A DNA stretch of 64,000 nucleotides from Pimelobacter simplex. GTDB taxonomy: Bacteria; Actinomycetota; Actinomycetes; Propionibacteriales; Nocardioidaceae. This document shows positions 13,494 to 30,979 of the stretch, one piece after another. The stretch lies in contig NZ_CP096276.1 in assembly GCF_024662235.1 (NCBI RefSeq), positions 2,108,001 to 2,172,000 on the forward strand, given 5' to 3'. Made by a program: the position numbers and the translations under genes. Within the stretch, counting starts at the first letter, position 1. Every line of letters starts with the position of its first letter. Below the pieces are notes generated by a model. It was not told the DNA's origin and searched no databases. It saw only the letters and a program-made list of their open reading frames with translations.

Positions 13494-14261
13494 TCAGTCC
13501 TCGATCTGGTCGAGCACCTCGTCCGGGATGTCGGCGTTGGAGAAGACGTTCTGCACGTCGTCGAGGTCGTCGACCGCGTCGACCAGCTTGAACACCTTGC
13601 CGGCCGCGACCGGGTCGGCGACGGGGATGTCCATGGAGGCGACGAACTGGACCTCGGCGGAGTCGTAGTCGATGCCGGCCTGCTGGAGGGCGGTGCGGAC
13701 GGCGACGACGTCGGTGGCCTCGGACTGGACCTCGAAGCTGTCGCCGTGGTCGTTGACCTCTTCGGCACCGGCGTCGAGGGTGGCCTCGAGGACGTCGTCC
13801 TCGGAGACGTCCTTGCCGTCCTGGGCCTTGGCGACCATGACGACGCCCTTGCGGGTGAACAGGCGCGAGACCGAGCCGGGGTCGGCCATGGTGCCGCCGT
13901 TGCGGGTGACCGCGGTGCGGACCTCCATCGCGGCGCGGTTGCGGTTGTCGGTGAGGCACTCGACGAGGAGTGCGACGCCCTGGGGGCCGTAGACCTCGTA
14001 CATGATCGTCTCGTAGTCGACGCCGCCGCCCTCGAGGCCACCGCCGCGCTTGACCGCGGAGTCGATGTTCTTGTTGGGGACCGACTGCTTCTTGGCCTTC
14101 TGGATGGCGTCGTAGAGGGTCGGGTTGCCCGTCGGGTCGGGGCCGCCCATCTTGGCCGCGATCTCGATGTTCTTGATCAGCTTCGCGAAGAGCTTGCCTC
14201 GCTTGGCGTCGATCGCGGCCTTCTTGTGCTTGGTGGTCGCCCACTTGGAGTGGCCAGACAT
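13494..14261 (-). CDS. yebC: YebC/PmpR family translation or transcription factor
   Basis: 255-residue YebC family protein. It starts with the invariant [20 protein letters not shown], continues with [16 protein letters not shown] and has the acidic [20 protein letters not shown] region. YebC proteins were described as transcription regulators and, more recently, as factors that help ribosomes through proline stretches; which applies here is unknown. ATG at 14261 has GAGGGA upstream. Location before ruvC and after pdxT matches other actinobacteria. Confidence 0.95.
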
Positions 14262-14314
14262 CAGTCCCTCTTCTACGTCGACAGTCCACGGCTGCTCGAA
14301 ACAGCCGATGCAGT

Positions 14315-14911
14315 CTATCCCTGCGCCCGAACCCCGCTGCTCGCCACCATGTCCACGAACAGCCGGTGCACCCGGCCGTCGCCCTCGACCTCGGGGTGGA
14401 AGGACGTCGCCATCAAGTGCCCCTGCCGTACGGCGACCGGGTGTCCCTGAGCCCGGGCGAGCACCTCGACCGACGGGCCGGTCGCCTCCACCCACGGTGC
14501 CCGGATGAAGACCGCGTGCACCGGCGCGTCGAGCCCCTCGAAGGGCAGGTCGGCCTCGAACGAGTCGACCTGGCGGCCGAACGCGTTGCGGCGGACGGTG
14601 ACGTCGAGGCCGCCGATCGTCTCCTGGTCGGCGGTACCGCCCTCGATCCGGTCGGCGAGCAGGATCATCCCGGCGCAGGTGCCGAAGGTCGGCATCCCGC
14701 CCGAGATCCGCTCGCGCAGCGGCTCGAGGAGCTCGAAGGTCCGCGCCAGCTTGGACATCGTCGTCGACTCGCCGCCGGGCAGCACGAGGCCGTCGCAGCG
14801 GGCGAGCTCGGCGGGCCGTCGTACCGGGAAGGCGTCGGCGCCGAGGGCGGTCAGGGTCTGCAGGTGTTCACGGACGTCGCCCTGGAGGGCGAAGACACCG
14901 ATGGCGGGCAC
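14315..14911 (-). CDS. pdxT: Pyridoxal 5'-phosphate synthase glutaminase subunit PdxT
   Basis: Class I glutaminase (198 residues) that supplies ammonia to PdxS for vitamin B6 synthesis. Visible are [13 protein letters not shown] at the N-terminus, LPGGESTTM, the nucleophile elbow [11 protein letters not shown] (catalytic Cys), and the C-terminal [13 protein letters not shown] that supplies the His-Glu pair. GTG start. Its partner pdxS is 3.7 kb upstream, separated by the surface-protein cluster; the last gene of that cluster ends 11 bases before pdxT, so the two may be cotranscribed. Confidence 0.95.
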
Positions 14912-14922
14912 GGCGCAGAACG

Positions 14923-15888
14923 TTACGGCACGACCGTGCAGGTCTTGCTACCGCCGTTCCCCTGGTAGTTCGCCTGGTTGGAGACGGCCGACTGGACGCC
15001 GTTGACGATGGCGACGAGCTTGAAGTTGCCGGCCTCGTTGTTGATCGCGACCGTGGCGCCGGAACGGGCGGTGCCGGGGAACGTCGTGACCCGGGTGCCG
15101 CCGGGGTTGACGCTGTAGACGACCGCGAACGAGTCCGGGTTGCCGGGGCCCCAGGTCCAGTTCAGGTTGTAGGGGCTGCTGCCGTTGGTGGTGGTGCAGG
15201 GCGCGACGAGGACGGGCGCGGCGGGCGGCGCCACCGTGGCCCGGCTCGCGGTCGCGGTAGCGGAGGCCGAGTCGGTCCAGTACGCCGACGTGAAGGCCCA
15301 CGGCACCTGACCCGAGACGCCGAGCGCCCCGCCGAGCGCGAGTGCGGTCGCGACGCCCGCCGGCGCCACGAGCCGGGAGCCGCGCGAGCGCGCCGGACGG
15401 TCACCGCCGCCGGGGCGCGGCCCGAAGCCCAGCCAGAGCAGGCCGAGGACGCCGAGGCCGGTGGCGGCCAGACCGAACGGGCTGGCCGCGAGGTCGAGGA
15501 CGTAGCCCGCGTAGGGCACGCCGGCGACGACACGGTCGGCGGAGGCCACCTGGTAGGTCTGGGCGTCGGTGACGTCGTTGGCGTCGCCCCGCAGGGTCAG
15601 CACGCTCCGCTCGCCCCGGTGCTCGACGGCGAGCACCCGGTGGGTGACCCGGTCGCCGCGGGCGTCGCGGACGCTGACGACGTCGCCGACCGCGATGTCG
15701 GCGGCCGGGACCTCGTGGGCGATGCCGAGCGCGCCCGCGTCGTAGGTGGGGCTCATCGAGCCGGACGTGAACACCAGCGGCGTCACGTCGAGCAGCCGCC
15801 CGGCGAGGAGGGCGAGCAGGCAGAGGGCGCCGAGCACCCCGCCGGTCCACAGGAGCGCTTCGCGGCCGATCCGCAGGGTCTTGGTCAT
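14923..15888 (-). CDS. SipW-type signal peptidase fused to an exported C-terminal domain
   Basis: 321 residues. The first half is an ER-type/SipW signal peptidase I: an N-terminal membrane helix, the nucleophile in [17 protein letters not shown], then VGDVVSVRD and the [10 protein letters not shown] box whose His replaces the bacterial Lys, and a second membrane segment near 150-170. After a basic stretch comes another hydrophobic segment ending [18 protein letters not shown], which resembles the alternate leader found in SipW substrates, and then about 110 residues resembling a fibronectin-like exported domain with two Cys. It overlaps the upstream exported-protein gene by one base. Possibly it matures the neighbouring proteins, or itself. 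Confidence 0.75.
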
Positions 15889-16463
15889 CACGGCACCTGC
15901 GTCGCGGGGAAGGTGAGGGTCAGGTTGGCCTGCGCGCCGGAGGTCACGCTGGCCCCCGACGGCAACCGCACCTCGACGCACATGCTGTGCGCCTGGGTGG
16001 GAGCCAGGGTCGCCCCGGCCGGCTGGTCGAAGCCGTCGAGCGTGGCGTTGGCACCGCCGACGAGCGTGCCGCCGGAGCAGGTCGTGCCGTCGGAGGTACC
16101 GCCGCGGCGCACGGTGACCTGGAGCGCGGCGGCGAGATTGCCGCCACCGACGTCGGTCGCGGCCATCTGGATGCGATAGGAGAAGGACGCCGCGCCCGCG
16201 CTGTTGTTGGTGACCGGGAGGGTCGCCGAGCGGGAGGTCCCGGGCACGATCGCGTTGAGCGGGAACGAGGACCAGGTGTAGGTCTCGGGCTTCACCCGGA
16301 CGTTGGCCGCCAGGTCGATGTGCAGCGCGCCGGTGCTGAAGCTGACCCCGGGCACACTCCCCTGGTCCCGCCAGTACGCCGACGTGGTCACGGCCCCGAC
16401 CCCGACGAGCAGGCCCGCGGAGAGCAGGGCACGGGTGCGGCCGCGCCCGAACCAGCCGGTCAT
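15888..16463 (-). CDS. Exported protein with alternate-type (SipW-dependent) leader
   Basis: 191 residues. The leader GRTRALLSAGLLVGVGAVTT is followed by SAYWRDQGSVPGVSFSTGAL, the pattern seen in TasA/camelysin-like substrates of SipW signal peptidases, where the fold starts right after cleavage with ..STG.L.ID. The mature part is a predicted beta-sandwich with two Cys (TTCSGG and SMCVEV). By analogy it may be a fibre or surface-layer component, but the subfamily is not identified. It overlaps the LPxTG-like gene upstream by four bases. Confidence 0.7.
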   Translation of the reverse strand: MTGWFGRGRTRALLSAGLLVGVGAVTTSAYWRDQGSVPGVSFSTGALHIDLAANVRVKPETYTWSSFPLNAIVPGTSRSATLPVTNNSAGAASFSYRIQMAATDVGGGNLAAALQVTVRRGGTSDGTTCSGGTLVGGANATLDGFDQPAGATLAPTQAHSMCVEVRLPSGASVTSGAQANLTLTFPATQVP

Positions 16464-17125
16464 CGCGCCTCACCCCCGCTGGTCCGGCCGCGGCGGACCA
16501 GCGCCAGGCCGGCGCCGACCAGACCGGCGGCGAGCCAGACCAGTCCGGAGGTCACGCCGGCGCCCGTCCCGGGCAGGCCCTCGCTCTCGCCACCGACCGC
16601 TCCCCCGTCACCGGGACCACCGGCACCCTCGTCGACACCGCCGACGTCGCCGTCCTCGGAGAGCCGGAGCCGGACCCGGAAGGGCACGTCGGAGAGCTGC
16701 TGTGACGTCGACTCCGCGGCGAACCGGGCGCGGACGCTGACCTTGGTCCGGGCTCCACGGGCGACCTCGAGGGCCGTCGCCGCGCGGGTCCGGCCGATGC
16801 CGACCGGTACCCAGGAACCGCCGCCCACCCGGGCCTCGACGGTGAGCGCGTCGGAGGCGAGCAGCGCATCGGGGTCGCCGGCCACGACGTTCACCGTCAG
16901 CACGCCGGCGGAGGGTCCGTCGTTGCGGACCAGGAAGGAGCGGGTCTCGACGTCGCCGGGGACCAGCCGGAGGCCGGGCTCGAACAGCGGTGCGCCGAGG
17001 TCCGCGCTCCAGGAGACGCCGTCGCGGCTGAGCCCGAGCTCGTCGTCGGCATGGGCCGGCGCGGCGGGCACCACCAGCGCGACCGCCGCGACGGCGGCGG
17101 CGACCGGGGCGAGGCGTCGGATCAC
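16460..17125 (-). CDS. Surface protein with LPGTG sorting-like signal
   Basis: 221 residues: a Sec signal peptide (AAAVAAVALVVPAAPAHA), a beta-rich extracellular domain (about 28-165), a Gly/Asp/Glu-rich linker, then LPGTGAG, a hydrophobic segment (LVWLAAGLVGAGLALV) and a basic tail RRGR. That is the architecture of sortase-anchored proteins, though no sortase gene is seen nearby. Alternatively it is simply a single-pass membrane protein. Start and stop overlap both neighbours by four bases, so it is translated as part of the cluster. Confidence 0.7.
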   Translation of the reverse strand: MIRRLAPVAAAVAAVALVVPAAPAHADDELGLSRDGVSWSADLGAPLFEPGLRLVPGDVETRSFLVRNDGPSAGVLTVNVVAGDPDALLASDALTVEARVGGGSWVPVGIGRTRAATALEVARGARTKVSVRARFAAESTSQQLSDVPFRVRLRLSEDGDVGGVDEGAGGPGDGGAVGGESEGLPGTGAGVTSGLVWLAAGLVGAGLALVRRGRTSGGEAR

Positions 17126-17823
17126 GAGGAGGCTCCTGGAGGCGAGGGGCGGAGGAGGTCGAGCAGGACGATGAGGAGCAGGAGGCCGACGAGGACGCCG
17201 CCGGCGGGCAGTGGCGGGGCGGACCCGGTGGTCGCTGCCCCGGCGACGGGCACCCGCACCTCCGGGACGAGCGGCCGGACCTCGGCCTCGTCCGCGGGAC
17301 GCCGCTTGCGGCGGCGATCGCGGACGGCACCGACGAACATGAAGACCGCGTAGCCCACCAGGGCCCCCGACACGACCAGCACGGCGGTCTGCCGCTGGCG
17401 CCCGGTGAGCACGTTGTTGACGTAGCCGAGGTACGGCACGGCGTACCAGAGCCGGCCCCGGACCTGGACCTCGCGCACCGGCGCGGGGTCCGCGGCGCCG
17501 TTGGCATCGCCCCGGGTGGTGAACACCTTCTCGCCGTCGAGCCGGTTGCCGATCGCCGTGACCCGGTGGGTCACGACGGTCGAGCGACCGGACTCGCGCT
17601 GGTAGGTGATCACGTCACCGGCGCGGATGTCGTCGGTCGCGACCGGCTTGACCACCACCAGGGTCCCTGGGGGGAAGTCCGGTCGCATCGAGCCGGTCAT
17701 CACCGTGTACGGCGTCGACCCGCTCACCCGCGGCACCACGACGGCGAGCGCCAGCACGCCCGCGACGAGCAGGATCACCGACCAGGCCAGGACCTGGGTG
17801 ACCCACCCGAGCGCGGAACGCAT
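17122..17823 (-). CDS. sipW: Signal peptidase I, SipW/archaeal type
   Basis: 233 residues with an N-terminal membrane segment (VLAWSVILLVAGVLALAVVV), the catalytic Ser in YTVMTGSMRPDFPPGTLVVV, RAGDVITYQRE and VVTHRVTAIGN with His in the place of the general-base Lys, and TRGDANGAADPAPV. These are the boxes of SipW-like peptidases that process alternate leaders. A second membrane segment (LVVSGALVGYAVFMFVGAV) and a hydrophobic C-terminus make it more membrane-embedded than usual. It most likely cleaves the two alternate-leader proteins of this cluster. The symbol is by analogy only. Confidence 0.82.
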   Translation of the reverse strand: MRSALGWVTQVLAWSVILLVAGVLALAVVVPRVSGSTPYTVMTGSMRPDFPPGTLVVVKPVATDDIRAGDVITYQRESGRSTVVTHRVTAIGNRLDGEKVFTTRGDANGAADPAPVREVQVRGRLWYAVPYLGYVNNVLTGRQRQTAVLVVSGALVGYAVFMFVGAVRDRRRKRRPADEAEVRPLVPEVRVPVAGAATTGSAPPLPAGGVLVGLLLLIVLLDLLRPSPPGASS

Positions 17824-17838
17824 GACGCTCGCGCCGGA

Positions 17839-18417
17839 TCAGTGGTTGTTGTTCTGGGTCAGGGTGACCGTGATGTTGTCGAGCGTGGCGGACTTGAGCT
17901 GCGTGTCGTTGCCGTTGACGCTCGTCGTGCCGTAGGGGAAGTCGATCTTGATCGTGGCGACCAGGTACTTCCCGTTCTGACCCGTGTTCACGGTGCCCGG
18001 GACGGCGACCGGGTTGGTCGCGCCGGCGGCGTCGTCGGCCACGACGTACGTCGCGCTGACCGGGACGGACTCGGTCGTCGCGACGGACTCGAGCGTGCCG
18101 GTGAGCGCCAGCGAGGTCGGCGTGGTCAGCGTCGCCTCGAGGTGGGCGCCGCTCGCGGCGATCTGGAACGAGCAGACCCGGGTCAGGCTGTCACCGGGGA
18201 CCAGGAGCTGGCTGCCGTAGGCGGCCTCCTTGCCGGAGACGCCCTTGTCGAGGATCCAGCCGCCGCAGTTGTCGTTCTCGAGCGACAGGTTGCCGGTCGA
18301 GATCGACGTGCCACCGACGGTGCCGGTGTCGGTCCAGTAGGCCAGCGTGCCCGCGCCGCCCATGAGGAGCACGGCTGCGGCACCGGCCGCGAGCGCACCC
18401 TTCGTCGACTTCTTCAT
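17839..18417 (-). CDS. Alternate-type leader surface protein, TasA-like
   Basis: 192 residues. The leader MKKSTKGALAAGAAAVLLMG, then GAGTLAYWTDTGTVGGTSIS and STGNLSLEND, is diagnostic of the alternate signal-peptide class handled by SipW. The mature region is a beta-rich domain with two Cys and an Asn-rich end. The ATG at 18417 was chosen because GAAGGTGG lies six bases upstream; an in-frame GTG three codons earlier overlaps that site. It is the promoter-proximal gene of the five-gene cluster and probably the most abundant product. Confidence 0.78.
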   Translation of the reverse strand: MKKSTKGALAAGAAAVLLMGGAGTLAYWTDTGTVGGTSISTGNLSLENDNCGGWILDKGVSGKEAAYGSQLLVPGDSLTRVCSFQIAASGAHLEATLTTPTSLALTGTLESVATTESVPVSATYVVADDAAGATNPVAVPGTVNTGQNGKYLVATIKIDFPYGTTSVNGNDTQLKSATLDNITVTLTQNNNH

Positions 18418-18422
18418 GTGTG

Positions 18423-18470
18423 CCACCTTCGGATCGGTGGTCCCGAGCGACCGGAGGAGCCGGTGGCTCC
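18423..18470 (-). promoter_or_regulatory. Two 5'-leader hairpins, one covering the ribosome site
   Basis: In the mRNA sense of the TasA-like gene, GGAGCC-ACC-GGCTCC (18470-18456) is a perfect 6-bp hairpin and CCACC (18440-18436) can pair with GGTGG (18427-18423), which is part of the ribosome site. GTGTG at 18490-18486 can also pair with CACAC at 18422-18418. The layout would allow translational control but matches no riboswitch class known to me. Confidence 0.35.
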
Positions 18471-18553
18471 AGGCCGCCGGCGGTACACACGACCAATGAC
18501 CGAAAGGTGCTGCAGTTACGGATGGGGTGAGGATCCGGGTGAAGTTTTACTTT

Positions 18554-18585
18554 CCGCGGCCGGCCCGGGTGAGGACCGGCCGCGG
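18554..18585 (-). terminator. Inverted repeat after pdxS
   Basis: CCGCGGCCGG (18554-18563) and CCGGCCGCGG (18576-18585) form a perfect 10-bp stem with a 12-base loop, five bases beyond the pdxS stop. On the pdxS strand the stem is followed by AAAGTAAAA rather than U residues, so it is a GC-rich hairpin terminator or an mRNA-stabilising element at best. Confidence 0.45.
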
Positions 18586-18589
18586 CAGG

Positions 18590-19483
18590 TCACCAGCCGC
18601 GCTCGGCGAACTGGATCGAGCGGGCGGGCTCGTCGACGTTGATGCCGACCATCGCCTCACCCAGACCACGCGAGACCTTCGCGACCACATCAGGGTCGTC
18701 GTGGAAGGTCGTGGCCTTCACGATCGCCTCGGCCCGCTGGGCCGGGTTGCCCGACTTGAAGATCCCCGAGCCCACGAACACACCCTCGGCGCCGAGCTGC
18801 ATCATCATCGCCGCGTCCGCCGGGGTCGCGATCCCGCCGGCGGTGAACAGCACCACCGGGAGCTTGCCGGTCCGGGCGACCTCGACCACCAGGTCATAGG
18901 GCGCCTGGAGCTCCTTGGCCGCGACGTACAGCTCGTCCTCGGCCTGTGCGCCGAGGCGGCGGATCTCGGCGCGGATGGTGCGCATGTGGGTCACCGCGTT
19001 CGACACGTCACCGGTACCGGCCTCGCCCTTGGAGCGGATCATCGCCGCGCCCTCGGTGATCCGGCGCAGCGCCTCGCCCAGGTTGGTCGCACCGCACACG
19101 AACGGGACCGTGAAGTTCCACTTGTCGATGTGGTTGGCGTAGTCGGCCGGGGTCAGCACCTCGGACTCGTCGATGTAGTCCACACCCAACGACTGCAGGA
19201 CCTGGGCCTCGGCGAAGTGCCCGATCCGGGCCTTGGCCATCACCGGGATCGAGACCGCCGCGATGATGCCGTCGATCATGTCCGGGTCGCTCATCCGCGA
19301 CACCCCGCCCTGGGCGCGGATGTCGGCCGGGACCCGCTCCAACGCCATCACCGCGACCGCGCCGGCGTCCTCGGCGATCTTGGCCTGCTCAGGGGTGACC
19401 ACGTCCATGATCACACCCCCCTTGAGCATCTCGGCCATGCCGCGCTTGACCCGGGTGGTGCCGTGCTCCTGCTGCTCGCTCAT
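18590..19483 (-). CDS. pdxS: Pyridoxal 5'-phosphate synthase lyase subunit PdxS
   Basis: 297-residue TIM-barrel synthase that makes PLP from ribose 5-phosphate, glyceraldehyde 3-phosphate and ammonia from PdxT. Family hallmarks are [68 protein letters not shown] and KGEAGTGDV. The catalytic Lys residues in IMAKARIG-type and RSKGEAGTG contexts are present. The ATG at 19483 begins [15 protein letters not shown]; a longer upstream reading is Pro/Arg-rich and unlikely. See pdxT for the unusual separation of the pair. Confidence 0.97.
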
Positions 19484-29511: not shown

Positions 29512-29922
29512 ATGGCCGAACGCCCCATCGTCAGCGAGAGCGACCTGCAGGTCCTGGACAGCATGGACGCCGTCGAGCTGGGTCAGCGGATCCGGCAGGC
29601 ACGCCGAGCGCGCGGCCTCACGCAGCGCGAGATCGCCGAGCCAGAGTTCTCGGTGCCCTACATCTCCCGGATCGAAGCGGGAGAACGCCGGCCCAGTACC
29701 GCTGCGCTTTCGCACTTCGCCAGCCGGATGGGGATGACGCTCCCGGAGCTGATGCGCCAGGACGGCGAGGTCAACGTCGGGCTGCAGGATGCGCTGGCAC
29801 GACGGGTAGCGATCGCCACCTCTACCTGGCTGCGCTCCCCCTCCGACAAGTCGGCCCACGACGCCATGACCGACGCCGTGGCCCTCTGGGATCTGGCAGT
29901 ATCGGGCAACTCTTGGCGATAA
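29512..29922 (+). CDS. XRE family HTH regulator
   Basis: 136 residues with a Cro/CI-type HTH at about 22-78 (LGQRIRQARRARGLTQREIA, then VPYISRIEAGERRPS and MGMTLPELM). The C-terminal ~50 residues are helical, without a LexA/CI peptidase, so it would not be self-cleaved. GAGGAAGG precedes the ATG. It may be one of the phage regulators, acting on the promoter at 29930-29959 just downstream, which has its own inverted repeat. Confidence 0.85.
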   Translation: MAERPIVSESDLQVLDSMDAVELGQRIRQARRARGLTQREIAEPEFSVPYISRIEAGERRPSTAALSHFASRMGMTLPELMRQDGEVNVGLQDALARRVAIATSTWLRSPSDKSAHDAMTDAVALWDLAVSGNSWR

Positions 29923-29929
29923 TCAAGGG

Positions 29930-29959
29930 CTGACATTTTCTGACAAGTCAGGTCAGAAT
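29930..29959 (+). promoter_or_regulatory. Promoter with overlapping inverted repeat
   Basis: A -35-like CTGACA (29930-29935) and a -10-like CAGAAT (29954-29959) are 18 bases apart, and the ATG of the next gene is six bases after the -10 box, so the mRNA would be leaderless. TTCTGAC (29938-29944) and GTCAGAA (29952-29958) form a perfect 7-bp inverted repeat between and over the boxes, a likely operator. Confidence 0.5.
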
Positions 29960-29965
29960 CATCCC

Positions 29966-30160
29966 ATGATGGAGGGGATGGGGTTGTTCGCCGCCGCGGG
30001 TATCCGCATTGTGCCCGTGGAGGACTTCGCTCCGGGCGCGGTCCTGGTGTCGGAGTTCAAGATCTTGTTGGTTGACACCGACCTCACGACCGAGGAGCGC
30101 CACCGCGTGGCGTGCGAGTTCCTTCCCGCTGCGATAGCGCTCGGCCGGCCGTCGTCCTGA
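29966..30160 (+). CDS. Small protein of the immunity region, unknown
   Basis: 64 residues, not recognised with certainty. The stretch FKILLVDTDLTTEERHRVAC resembles the region that precedes the HExxH helix of ImmA/IrrE peptidases, but the metal-binding His residues are missing, so if related it is a remnant or a non-catalytic short form. The start fits the leaderless promoter directly upstream. Its 3' end overlaps the convergent repressor gene by 77 bases. Confidence 0.5.
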   Translation: MMEGMGLFAAAGIRIVPVEDFAPGAVLVSEFKILLVDTDLTTEERHRVACEFLPAAIALGRPSS

Positions 30161-30452
30161 GCTTGAGATCGCGCTCCTCGCGGCCTCGCTCCTTCGCTGC
30201 GACGCCTTGGAGCTCTGAAATCCAAGCGCGCGGGTCCTTGCCCAGCGCCATGGCAATCCGGACGAGCTGCTCGACATGGACCAACCGAGGCTCCGACGTC
30301 CTGGAGAGCAGGTTGGCCAGCGTGCTTCGAGGAATCCCGGAGTCCTCGGCGAGCATCTGCTGGGTGACCCCCGAGGACTTGTCGAACGCATCCCGAATGA
30401 GCTCGAGAGCGCGCAAGTTGACCGCTCGGCCCGCCTGTTCCTTTTGTCCCAT
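30084..30452 (-). CDS. XRE family phage repressor candidate
   Basis: 122 residues with an HTH in SGVTQQMLAEDSGIPRSTLA and LSRTSEPRLVHVEQLVRIAM, followed by a charged tail. It is divergent from the Cro-like gene over a 78-base interval with three operator boxes, the arrangement of a lysogeny repressor. ATG at 30452 is six bases after a TACTGT -10 box (30464-30459), so the mRNA is probably leaderless; an upstream in-frame ATG lies inside the operator. No self-cleavage domain is present, so induction must work differently from CI/LexA. Confidence 0.8.
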   Translation of the reverse strand: MGQKEQAGRAVNLRALELIRDAFDKSSGVTQQMLAEDSGIPRSTLANLLSRTSEPRLVHVEQLVRIAMALGKDPRAWISELQGVAAKERGREERDLKLRTTAGRALSQREGTRTPRGGAPRS

Positions 30453-30458
30453 GTCGGG

Positions 30459-30546
30459 ACAGTATCCCATTCTGAACATCGAGGGCTAGATCCCTTGCGC
30501 GATGTCCCATTCTGAACTAGCGTTCCCACTGTGTCCCATTCTGAAC
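30459..30546. promoter_or_regulatory. Divergent lysogeny-switch promoters with three operator boxes
   Basis: The box TCCCATTCTGAAC occurs exactly at 30465-30477, 30505-30517 and 30534-30546, always in the same orientation, the last two also sharing the preceding G. Leftward -10 TACTGT (30464-30459) serves the repressor; rightward -35-like TTGCGC (30495-30500) and -10 TAGCGT (30518-30523), 17 apart, serve the Cro-like gene. The third box lies inside codons 2-6 of the Cro-like gene. Same-strand identical boxes in a divergent promoter are best read as sites for the repressor, Cro or both. Confidence 0.8.
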
Positions 30547-30773
30547 TCGACCTTCGTGAGGCAACCGCCGGCGAGGTCCGCGCCGCCAGGGCCAGGAAGC
30601 AGATCTCGCTGGATGTGCTCAGCGAATCGTGCGGGATCGCGAAGTCGACCCTGTCCGCGAAGCTCCGGGGCCTGACCGACTTCACCGTGCCGGAGCTGAT
30701 CGACATCGCGATGGCGCTCGGCGTCTCGGCGGCCGATCTCCTCCCGCCCGCGGCTGCCGAGGACGCCGCATGA
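30531..30773 (+). CDS. Cro-like HTH protein
   Basis: 80 residues, an HTH unit and little else: SLDVLSESCGIAKSTLSAKL and FTVPELIDIAMALGVSAADL. As the first rightward gene opposite the repressor it should play the Cro role or start the early operon. The GTG start has no ribosome site and is seven bases after the -10 box, so it is probably read from a leaderless mRNA. Codons 2-6 (SHSEL) coincide with the third operator box. Confidence 0.8.
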   Translation: MSHSELDLREATAGEVRAARARKQISLDVLSESCGIAKSTLSAKLRGLTDFTVPELIDIAMALGVSAADLLPPAAAEDAA

Positions 30774-30979
30774 GCACGGGCCCTGACAACGCTCGCATCA
30801 GCCTGCAGGACGCAGCCAGCGTCCTCGGCGCCTCGGTGAAGACGGTCCGACGGTGCATCGCGGACGGGTCGCTGCCCGCTGAGCGGATCAAGGGCTCGCA
30901 CCTGATCCGGGTAAAACGATCCGATGTCGAAGCGTTGCTGACGCCGGTGCCGACCGTCGATCGCTCGGGTGCGTCATGA
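30770..30979 (+). CDS. Excisionase-like HTH protein
   Basis: 69 residues with a winged-helix/MerR-like helix-turn-helix: ISLQDAASVLGASVKTVRRC, then IADGSLPAERIKGSHLIRVK. This is the HTH_17 / excisionase family, which bends DNA at attachment sites or acts as a small repressor. It overlaps the Cro-like gene by four bases, so it is made at the switch to lytic growth, as expected of an excisionase. Confidence 0.75.
   Translation: MSTGPDNARISLQDAASVLGASVKTVRRCIADGSLPAERIKGSHLIRVKRSDVEALLTPVPTVDRSGAS

Follow-up and report, generated by a model that had tools for sequence, protein, structure and literature searches.

Three identical operator-like boxes, the third within the cro-like coding region, in a predicted lysogeny switch of a Pimelobacter simplex prophage

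A prophage of Pimelobacter simplex carries, around the divergent starts of two XRE-family genes, three identical copies of a 13-mer that very probably serve as repressor binding sites in an ordinary phage switch. We analyzed a stretch of 64,000 nucleotides (termed the window hereafter), in which the prophage genes include those for integrase (27523), a ParB-like protein (33770), replication initiation (42226), terminase (53324), portal (54572), and major head protein (59009). Judging from all of the evidence described below, we regard the region with good confidence as a CI/Cro-type lysogeny switch of the prophage with quasi-palindromic operators. The initial annotation of this region had proposed a lysogeny switch with three operator boxes, one of them inside the Cro-like coding region, and the proposal appears well founded at the sequence level. 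The genes flanking the boxes, rep and cro, diverge from each other and both encode a Cro/C1-type HTH domain, and the protein lengths given there (122 and 80 residues) were correct (Table 1). An excisionase-like gene of the HTH_17 family directly follows cro, and the same gene order was found in two provirus relatives (L064 and L059).

Table 1. Features of the predicted switch in the window (positions are those of the window; -10, -35, and box assignments are predictions)
Feature	Position	Strand	Description
rep	30084..30452	-	122-aa XRE-family protein, Pfam HTH_3 1.6e-6; probable CI-type repressor
possible fourth half-site	30445..30452	+	TGTCCCAT, left half-box; on the opposite strand it forms the rep start ATGGGACA
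PL -10	30459..30464	-	TACTGT (TANNNT), 6 nt upstream of the rep ATG; predicted
operator box 1	30464..30477	+	14-mer ATCCCATTCTGAAC; abuts the PL -10; present in 8/8 loci
PR -35-like	30495..30500	+	TTGCGC, with a 17-bp spacer to the -10; all 8 loci have a TTG(C/A)-type hexamer with a spacer of 17 or 18 bp
operator box 2	30504..30517	+	GTCCCATTCTGAAC; fills the PR -35/-10 spacer; present in 8/8 loci
PR -10	30518..30523	+	TAGCGT (TANNNT), immediately downstream of box 2 and 7 nt upstream of the GTG; predicted
cro-like	30531..30773	+	80-aa XRE-family protein, GTG start at 30531, Pfam HTH_3 6.2e-7
operator box 3	30533..30546	+	GTCCCATTCTGAAC; from the third base of the cro start codon to the first of codon 6; 7/8 loci, inverted in one
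excisionase-like gene	30770..30979	+	HTH_17 2.3e-10; PHROG excisionase; overlaps the cro stop

As the initial annotation described, the 13-mer TCCCATTCTGAAC occurs three times, identical and always on the forward strand (30465-30477, 30505-30517, and 30534-30546), within a total span of 82 bp. A search of the whole genome (6,263,615 bp in 3 contigs) with zero or one mismatch recovered the three copies in the switch and no others, neither elsewhere in the prophage nor in the rest of the genome; the 13-mer read backwards, used as a control, gave 0 occurrences. Weak copies in the window were not in excess, as seven matches with up to three mismatches (including the three exact ones) compare with 6.35 expected. 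The longest same-strand repeat present in three copies within 100 bp was 13 nt, while three-copy repeats in dinucleotide shuffles of the local 200 bp (n = 3000) reached at most 8 nt, in one of the 3000 shuffles, and those in the other 200-bp segments tiled over the window were of 10 nt or shorter. When a matrix was built without the window sequences, the three boxes of the window scored 24 bits and the next-best site in the 64 kb scored 13.1. The density of relaxed boxes elsewhere (8 in 176,258 bp) gives a chance of about 3e-5 for two or more per 170-bp locus. The GC-rich window does contain other, shorter three-copy repeats (10 and 9 nt), a point in favor of the boxes being functionless products of chance or duplication, but we give that explanation practically no weight, as the boxes are kept across loci whose flanks have diverged and show both a fixed registration with the promoters and a codon bias (see below). 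In the window, an ATG precedes box 2 as well (30502-30518), so that both box 2 and box 3 can be read as M-S-H-S-E-L, though in different frames, 29 bp apart; no ATG stands there in the seven relatives, albeit the Aeromicrobium provirus has a GTG at this position.

The relatives were recovered with an alignment of rep, after single-sequence queries had given none (neither Cro searched in the genome contigs nor rep searched in IMG/VR found a relative). Homologues of rep were detected in at least six of the 215 genomes of the genus, the window genome included, with the best 20 candidates per genome scored, and beyond the genus in one Aeromicrobium genome (L059) and one further provirus (L064). 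The DNA of L059 recurs in IMG/VR as L063, a match in a genome (G380) from a different genus of the same family was taken as the same locus, and L057, L058, L060, and L061 come from genomes counted before. Thus, eight loci were compared: the window, five Nocardioides chromosomes, and the two proviruses. The protein database holds at least 80 rep homologues among the best 8000 candidates scored, and the DNA was compared for the seven loci besides the window. A Bdellovibrionales fragment (L062; 43 residues, 2e-5) was excluded as being too remote, with no box array upstream by eye, and the Cro alignment matched one weak locus in IMG/VR (L084; 33 residues, 2e-6).

Boxes 1 and 2 were found at matching positions in all of the seven other loci and box 3 in six of them, that is, 23 of the 24 boxes expected over the eight loci, although the loci share descent and these counts are not independent events. 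Close relatives with the same genes therefore retain the repeats, all three in six of the seven; the missing box is box 3 of one Nocardioides genome (G064), whose cro (L054, around 10000) has also lost the HTH region, a point against the switch reading. The distance between boxes 1 and 2 is 38-42 bp (46 in G064), and that between boxes 2 and 3 is 28-29 bp in the seven loci having both. The window and L064 each possess three identical 13-mers, but their cores differ (ATTC in the window and AATC in L064), as expected if the sites follow their own repressor; the boxes within one chromosomal locus differ from one another. A DNA pattern of the box array matched six contigs in IMG/VR, one being that of L064, while the other five showed no array (at most one relaxed box in four of them, and none by eye in L085). 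Over the order, the same pattern matched 2 of the 293 genomes, namely the window genome and G264, and missed G064, though sampled, because its box 3 is gone. The relaxed 13-mer was found in 6 of the 215 genomes of the genus and corresponds to box 1 in G025, G051, and G064; the matches in G187 and G218 were taken as chance, with no HTH gene among the nearby ORFs listed (2 and 4, respectively).

In the collection of cultured phages, no relative was found by DNA, nor by protein for rep. Cro matched six records with E-values from 2e-8 to 9e-3, four of which represent two Gordonia phages twice, and the best match was to Mycobacterium phage JustASigh (55% over 56 residues). The latter phage carries repeats of TTTCCCAC 33 bp apart between an annotated immunity repressor gene and an HTH gene (L038, 2380-2600), and these repeats possibly represent a distant version of the same switch.

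The operator-like boxes overlap both of the predicted promoters, box 1 at PL and boxes 2 and 3 at PR. A TANNNT motif stands right behind box 2 in all eight loci, 6-7 nt before the next ATG or GTG (in G064, that of a gene without HTH), and another stands 6-8 nt before the rep start in all eight. The mRNAs of cro and rep are thus both predicted to be leaderless. In Mycobacterium tuberculosis, TANNNT is described as marking 73% of the primary transcription starts, and a quarter of the genes as leaderless (PMC3898074). Box 1 begins with AT, and TA directly follows box 2, in 8/8 loci, because the -10 elements overlap those bases. If the cro mRNA is leaderless, its start codon lies at +1, and any operator at the transcription start must also serve as codons 2-6 of the gene.

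The third copy indeed lies in the coding region of the 80-aa Cro-like protein, where it occupies codons 2-5 and the first base of codon 6. The claim that DNA recognition and protein sequence constrain each other at this site gains support from codon choice. Codon 5 of cro is GAA in all six loci with a forward box 3, while GAA accounts for 129 of the 1985 Glu codons (6.5%) in 94 automatically called ORFs and for 2 of the 25 in their codons 2-6. In the rest of five cro genes, 4 of 28 Glu codons are GAA, which differs from the 5/5 inside the box with p = 5e-4 in Fisher's test, albeit the test ignores shared descent. The choice of GAA inside box 3 points to selection on the DNA. A similar bias was seen at the other start: rep begins with ATG/GTG-GGA-CA in seven of the eight loci, and GGA as codon 2 in 7/8 yields p = 3e-8 against its overall share of Gly codons in the reference ORFs (192/3065; 4/36 in codons 2-6), again ignoring shared descent. 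Twenty-nine rep homologues, the window included, were flagged for residues before M/V-G-Q. Twenty-five of them read as translations of box 1 (11 assigned by pattern and 14 by eye, 8 of the latter for the left half only), and the other four are truncated proteins.

Alternatively, box 3 might be kept for the peptide M-S-(H/Q)-x-E and not as DNA. Indeed, 26 of the 41 Cro homologues in the database, which include the window and three of the counted loci, start with M/V-S-(H/Q)-x-E, and 28 of the 41 have it within 22 residues, with 5 of the 13 misses being N-terminally short. Nevertheless, we consider this alternative very improbable for three reasons. Firstly, the codons themselves fit the box (GAA in 6/6, and TCC in 6/6, the latter being weak since TCC makes up 30% of Ser codons). 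Secondly, the cro gene of G025 (L053, 10053-10262) has lost the HTH region but retains box 3. Thirdly, box 3 is inverted in the Aeromicrobium provirus, so that its Cro begins with MFEMG rather than MSHSE and yet carries the box. Thus, natural variants, namely different cores, one inverted box, and a chromosomal cro that lacks the HTH but has the box, separate the constraint on DNA from that on protein.

The initial annotation had further regarded the boxes as asymmetric sites, unusual for small XRE dimers, and this part is unsupported. An alignment of the 23 boxes gives TGTYYCA-N4-GAAC(A/T), containing the dyad TGTYC-N6-GRACA, and we infer that the boxes are bound by dimers as this imperfect palindrome. 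Among 19 centers examined over the 23 boxes, the box center is the most symmetric, with 49% complementary pairs against 37% at the next, and a column shuffle gives p = 0.027, a generous value since the boxes had been collected with a pattern that already has some symmetry. Within the window, the dyad is poor: three of the seven pairs are complementary in boxes 2 and 3 and two of the seven in box 1. Stronger evidence than this statistic comes from the Aeromicrobium provirus, whose box 2 reads GTCCCATTTGGGAC, forming a 6+6 palindrome, and whose box 3 lies in the reverse orientation; from the aligned sites, the motif is probably better described as an imperfect palindrome. The asymmetric look of the boxes in the window stems from the identity of the three copies, and the type of site need not be asymmetric. 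As a caution for classification, a single locus with identical repeats on one strand gave the impression of asymmetry here, and the dyad became visible only through relatives.

The remaining case for truly asymmetric sites would be a monomer bound in a fixed orientation, as in the cluster A mycobacteriophages (L5 and TipsytheTRex). Such sites, 13 bp in length, are described from actinophages (PMC9283540); in our data, 22 of the 23 boxes share one orientation and the halves of the motif differ. We nevertheless hold this explanation to be unlikely, in view of the inverted box 3 and the perfect-dyad box 2 of the Aeromicrobium provirus and of the boxes being confined to the switch. Boxes 1 and 2, on the same strand, face opposite ways relative to their own promoters, while L5-type sites, when reversed, reportedly lose repression (PMC9283540). 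Moreover, the AlphaFold2 model of Rep (mean pLDDT 90) is predicted to comprise a single HTH domain and a long C-terminal helix (residues 74-108, the end of the helix being less certain). The fold matches to this model span residues 8-89 and barely cover the C-terminal part; cluster A repressors are absent from the best 50 fold matches listed in either of two fold lists, which carries no weight. A stoperator system was rejected, as the sites are not dispersed over the phage genome.

The preferred reading, an ordinary switch with quasi-palindromic operators, leads to the question of which proteins use the boxes. The Rep and Cro families are homologous in a profile comparison (probability 97.9, E-value 3.1e-13, across 74 columns), and the recognition helix starts with (G/E)-(I/M)-x-(R/K)-S-T-L in 8/8 Rep proteins and in all six Cro proteins that retain the HTH. 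Both observations favor a common target, and Rep and Cro probably both use the same boxes. A sequence search of the PDB gave no match for Rep and five for Cro, namely three designed dTor proteins, ClgR, and C.BclI. Within the same type of switch, one protein might be the main binder of the boxes, with the other acting by contact with its partner protein, in the manner of MOR and CI in TP901-1; TP901-1 and phi13 are described as having three CI operators (OR, OL, and OD), and a CI:MOR complex is described for TP901-1 (PMC7250872, PMC8516035). With the homology over 74 columns and the shared start of the recognition helix against it, we regard this variant as doubtful, albeit deserving some consideration.

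The predicted layout suggests how the switch would work. With box 2 inside the PR spacer and box 3 covering the bases transcribed first, repressor dimers on both sites would keep RNA polymerase from loading at PR and from escaping, leaving cro, the excisionase-like gene, and the early genes further downstream switched off. Box 1 is set against the PL -10, and its occupation would limit repressor synthesis, either as auto-repression or as a shut-off by Cro in lytic growth. Cro would compete with the repressor for the same boxes, and any preference of the two proteins among boxes would have to rest on differences beside the shared 13-mer or on cooperativity. The identity of the 13-mers offers no obvious basis for lambda-like graded affinities, which counts against the switch reading.

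Other genes around rep were surveyed as well. A third XRE gene is located in the prophage at 29512-29922 and could be the real repressor instead of the 122-aa protein. Between this gene and a 64-aa ORF, a perfect 7-bp inverted repeat (TTCTGAC-AAGTCAG-GTCAGAA, 29938-29958) was found, possibly a separate operator. The ORF itself (29966-30160, forward strand) overlaps the 3' end of rep and shows a weak match of 27 residues to an ImmA-like protein of L052; it is perhaps a reduced relative of the protease. In an ImmR/ImmA module, the repressor gene would be paired with a gene for an M78/IrrE-like protease. A gene with an HExxH motif adjoins rep in both proviruses (M78 at 3e-10 in L059, above the cut-off, and at 0.0069 in L064, below it).

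In the five Nocardioides relatives, the rep/cro pair resides at one chromosomal locus beside tRNA-Ser(TGA), and an HExxH gene stands next to rep, recognized by sequence in all five (the M78 scan of L052 gave 0.033, below the cut-off). The cassette in L050, L052, and L053 (G051, G264, and G025, respectively) lies at about 8.7-11.2 kb of each, in the order tRNA-Ser(TGA), HExxH ImmA-like gene, rep, the divergent cro, and a gene for a secreted-looking protein. The last protein, of ~165 aa, bears a DWNS motif and belongs to no Pfam family; an ABC ATPase gene comes next in G051 and G025, and the contig of G264 ends there. The secreted-looking family was detected in 21 of the 215 genomes of the genus at an E-value of 1e-8 and is absent from the window genome. 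Eight further loci of this family had no such boxes. By eye, the family stands beside other small HTH-like regulator genes in L092, L093, L096, and L097, with a divergent pair in L092 and L096 and a HELVH protease gene in L093; the family may thus possibly reflect a repeated use of phage-type switches. L050 (N. immobilis) also contains, at 13695-18690, integrase, excisionase-like, probable replication, and FtsK-like genes beside tRNA-Arg (by eye), which likely constitute an integrative element.

In a small midpoint-rooted tree of 20 sequences, the window grouped with four metagenomic sequences with a support of 0.961, apart from the chromosomal copies. Altogether, the sequence comparison suggests that Nocardioides uses phage-type switches as chromosomal regulators. 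A broader reading, in which operators write the N-termini of both regulators and the switch has been domesticated at the Nocardioides locus with the operator layout retained, is tentative, and we place it somewhat short of probable. If its first part is true, the operator would include the rep start ATGGGACA as a half-box and, as a full box, codons 2-6 of cro, and a new immunity specificity would have to rewrite the first residues of the regulators, with box inversion exchanging MSHSE for MFEMG. If the second part is true, the module would have moved between prophages and a fixed locus, where it would control the secreted protein and the ABC transporter.

Among the literature matches listed, we found no usable precedent for an operator inside a cro gene, and no paper on the Nocardioides version of the switch among the open-access ones. 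The rro/tec region of the lactococcal phage r1t reportedly has three operators, one of them within the cro-like gene, albeit its host and sequences are unrelated to those studied here. The OR region of lambda, with operators OR1-3 (PMC4488713), resembles the present switch in having two divergent HTH proteins and three operators between the genes. It differs in that the third box here is inside cro, the core sites are identical, and the mRNAs are predicted to be leaderless; in addition, the 122-aa protein would be too short for a peptidase domain like that of lambda CI. In the immB region of the telomere phage PY54, cI and cro mRNAs are described as leaderless from the AUG and the operator as a 16-bp palindrome (PMC4488713); the mRNAs here are likewise predicted to be leaderless, and the boxes would be imperfect palindromes. 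However, the PY54 Cro is described there as binding one site only, near cI, whereas three boxes flank both promoters here. The CI-MOR system of TP901-1 and phi13 is likewise a small two-gene switch with three CI operators (PMC7250872, PMC8516035), but the proteins differ, and the antirepression in TP901-1 is described as acting via the CI:MOR complex, of which there is no sign here.

Two further systems come from actinophages. The L5-type repressors are described as two-domain monomers on asymmetric sites dispersed over the genome (PMC9283540). The stoperators of cluster A phages (L5/TipsytheTRex) are, like the boxes, short sites in one orientation, whereas the sites here are local and probably quasi-symmetric, and both orientations occur across loci. 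In the immunity cassette of mycobacteriophage BPs, PR and Prep likewise lie between a repressor gene and a divergent Cro-like gene, but BPs has 12-bp palindromic half-sites, extra genomic sites, and an integration-dependent immunity (PMC4557955). The switch, probably of the CI/Cro type, would represent a compact actinobacterial version with the operator, promoter, start codon, and N-terminus superimposed.
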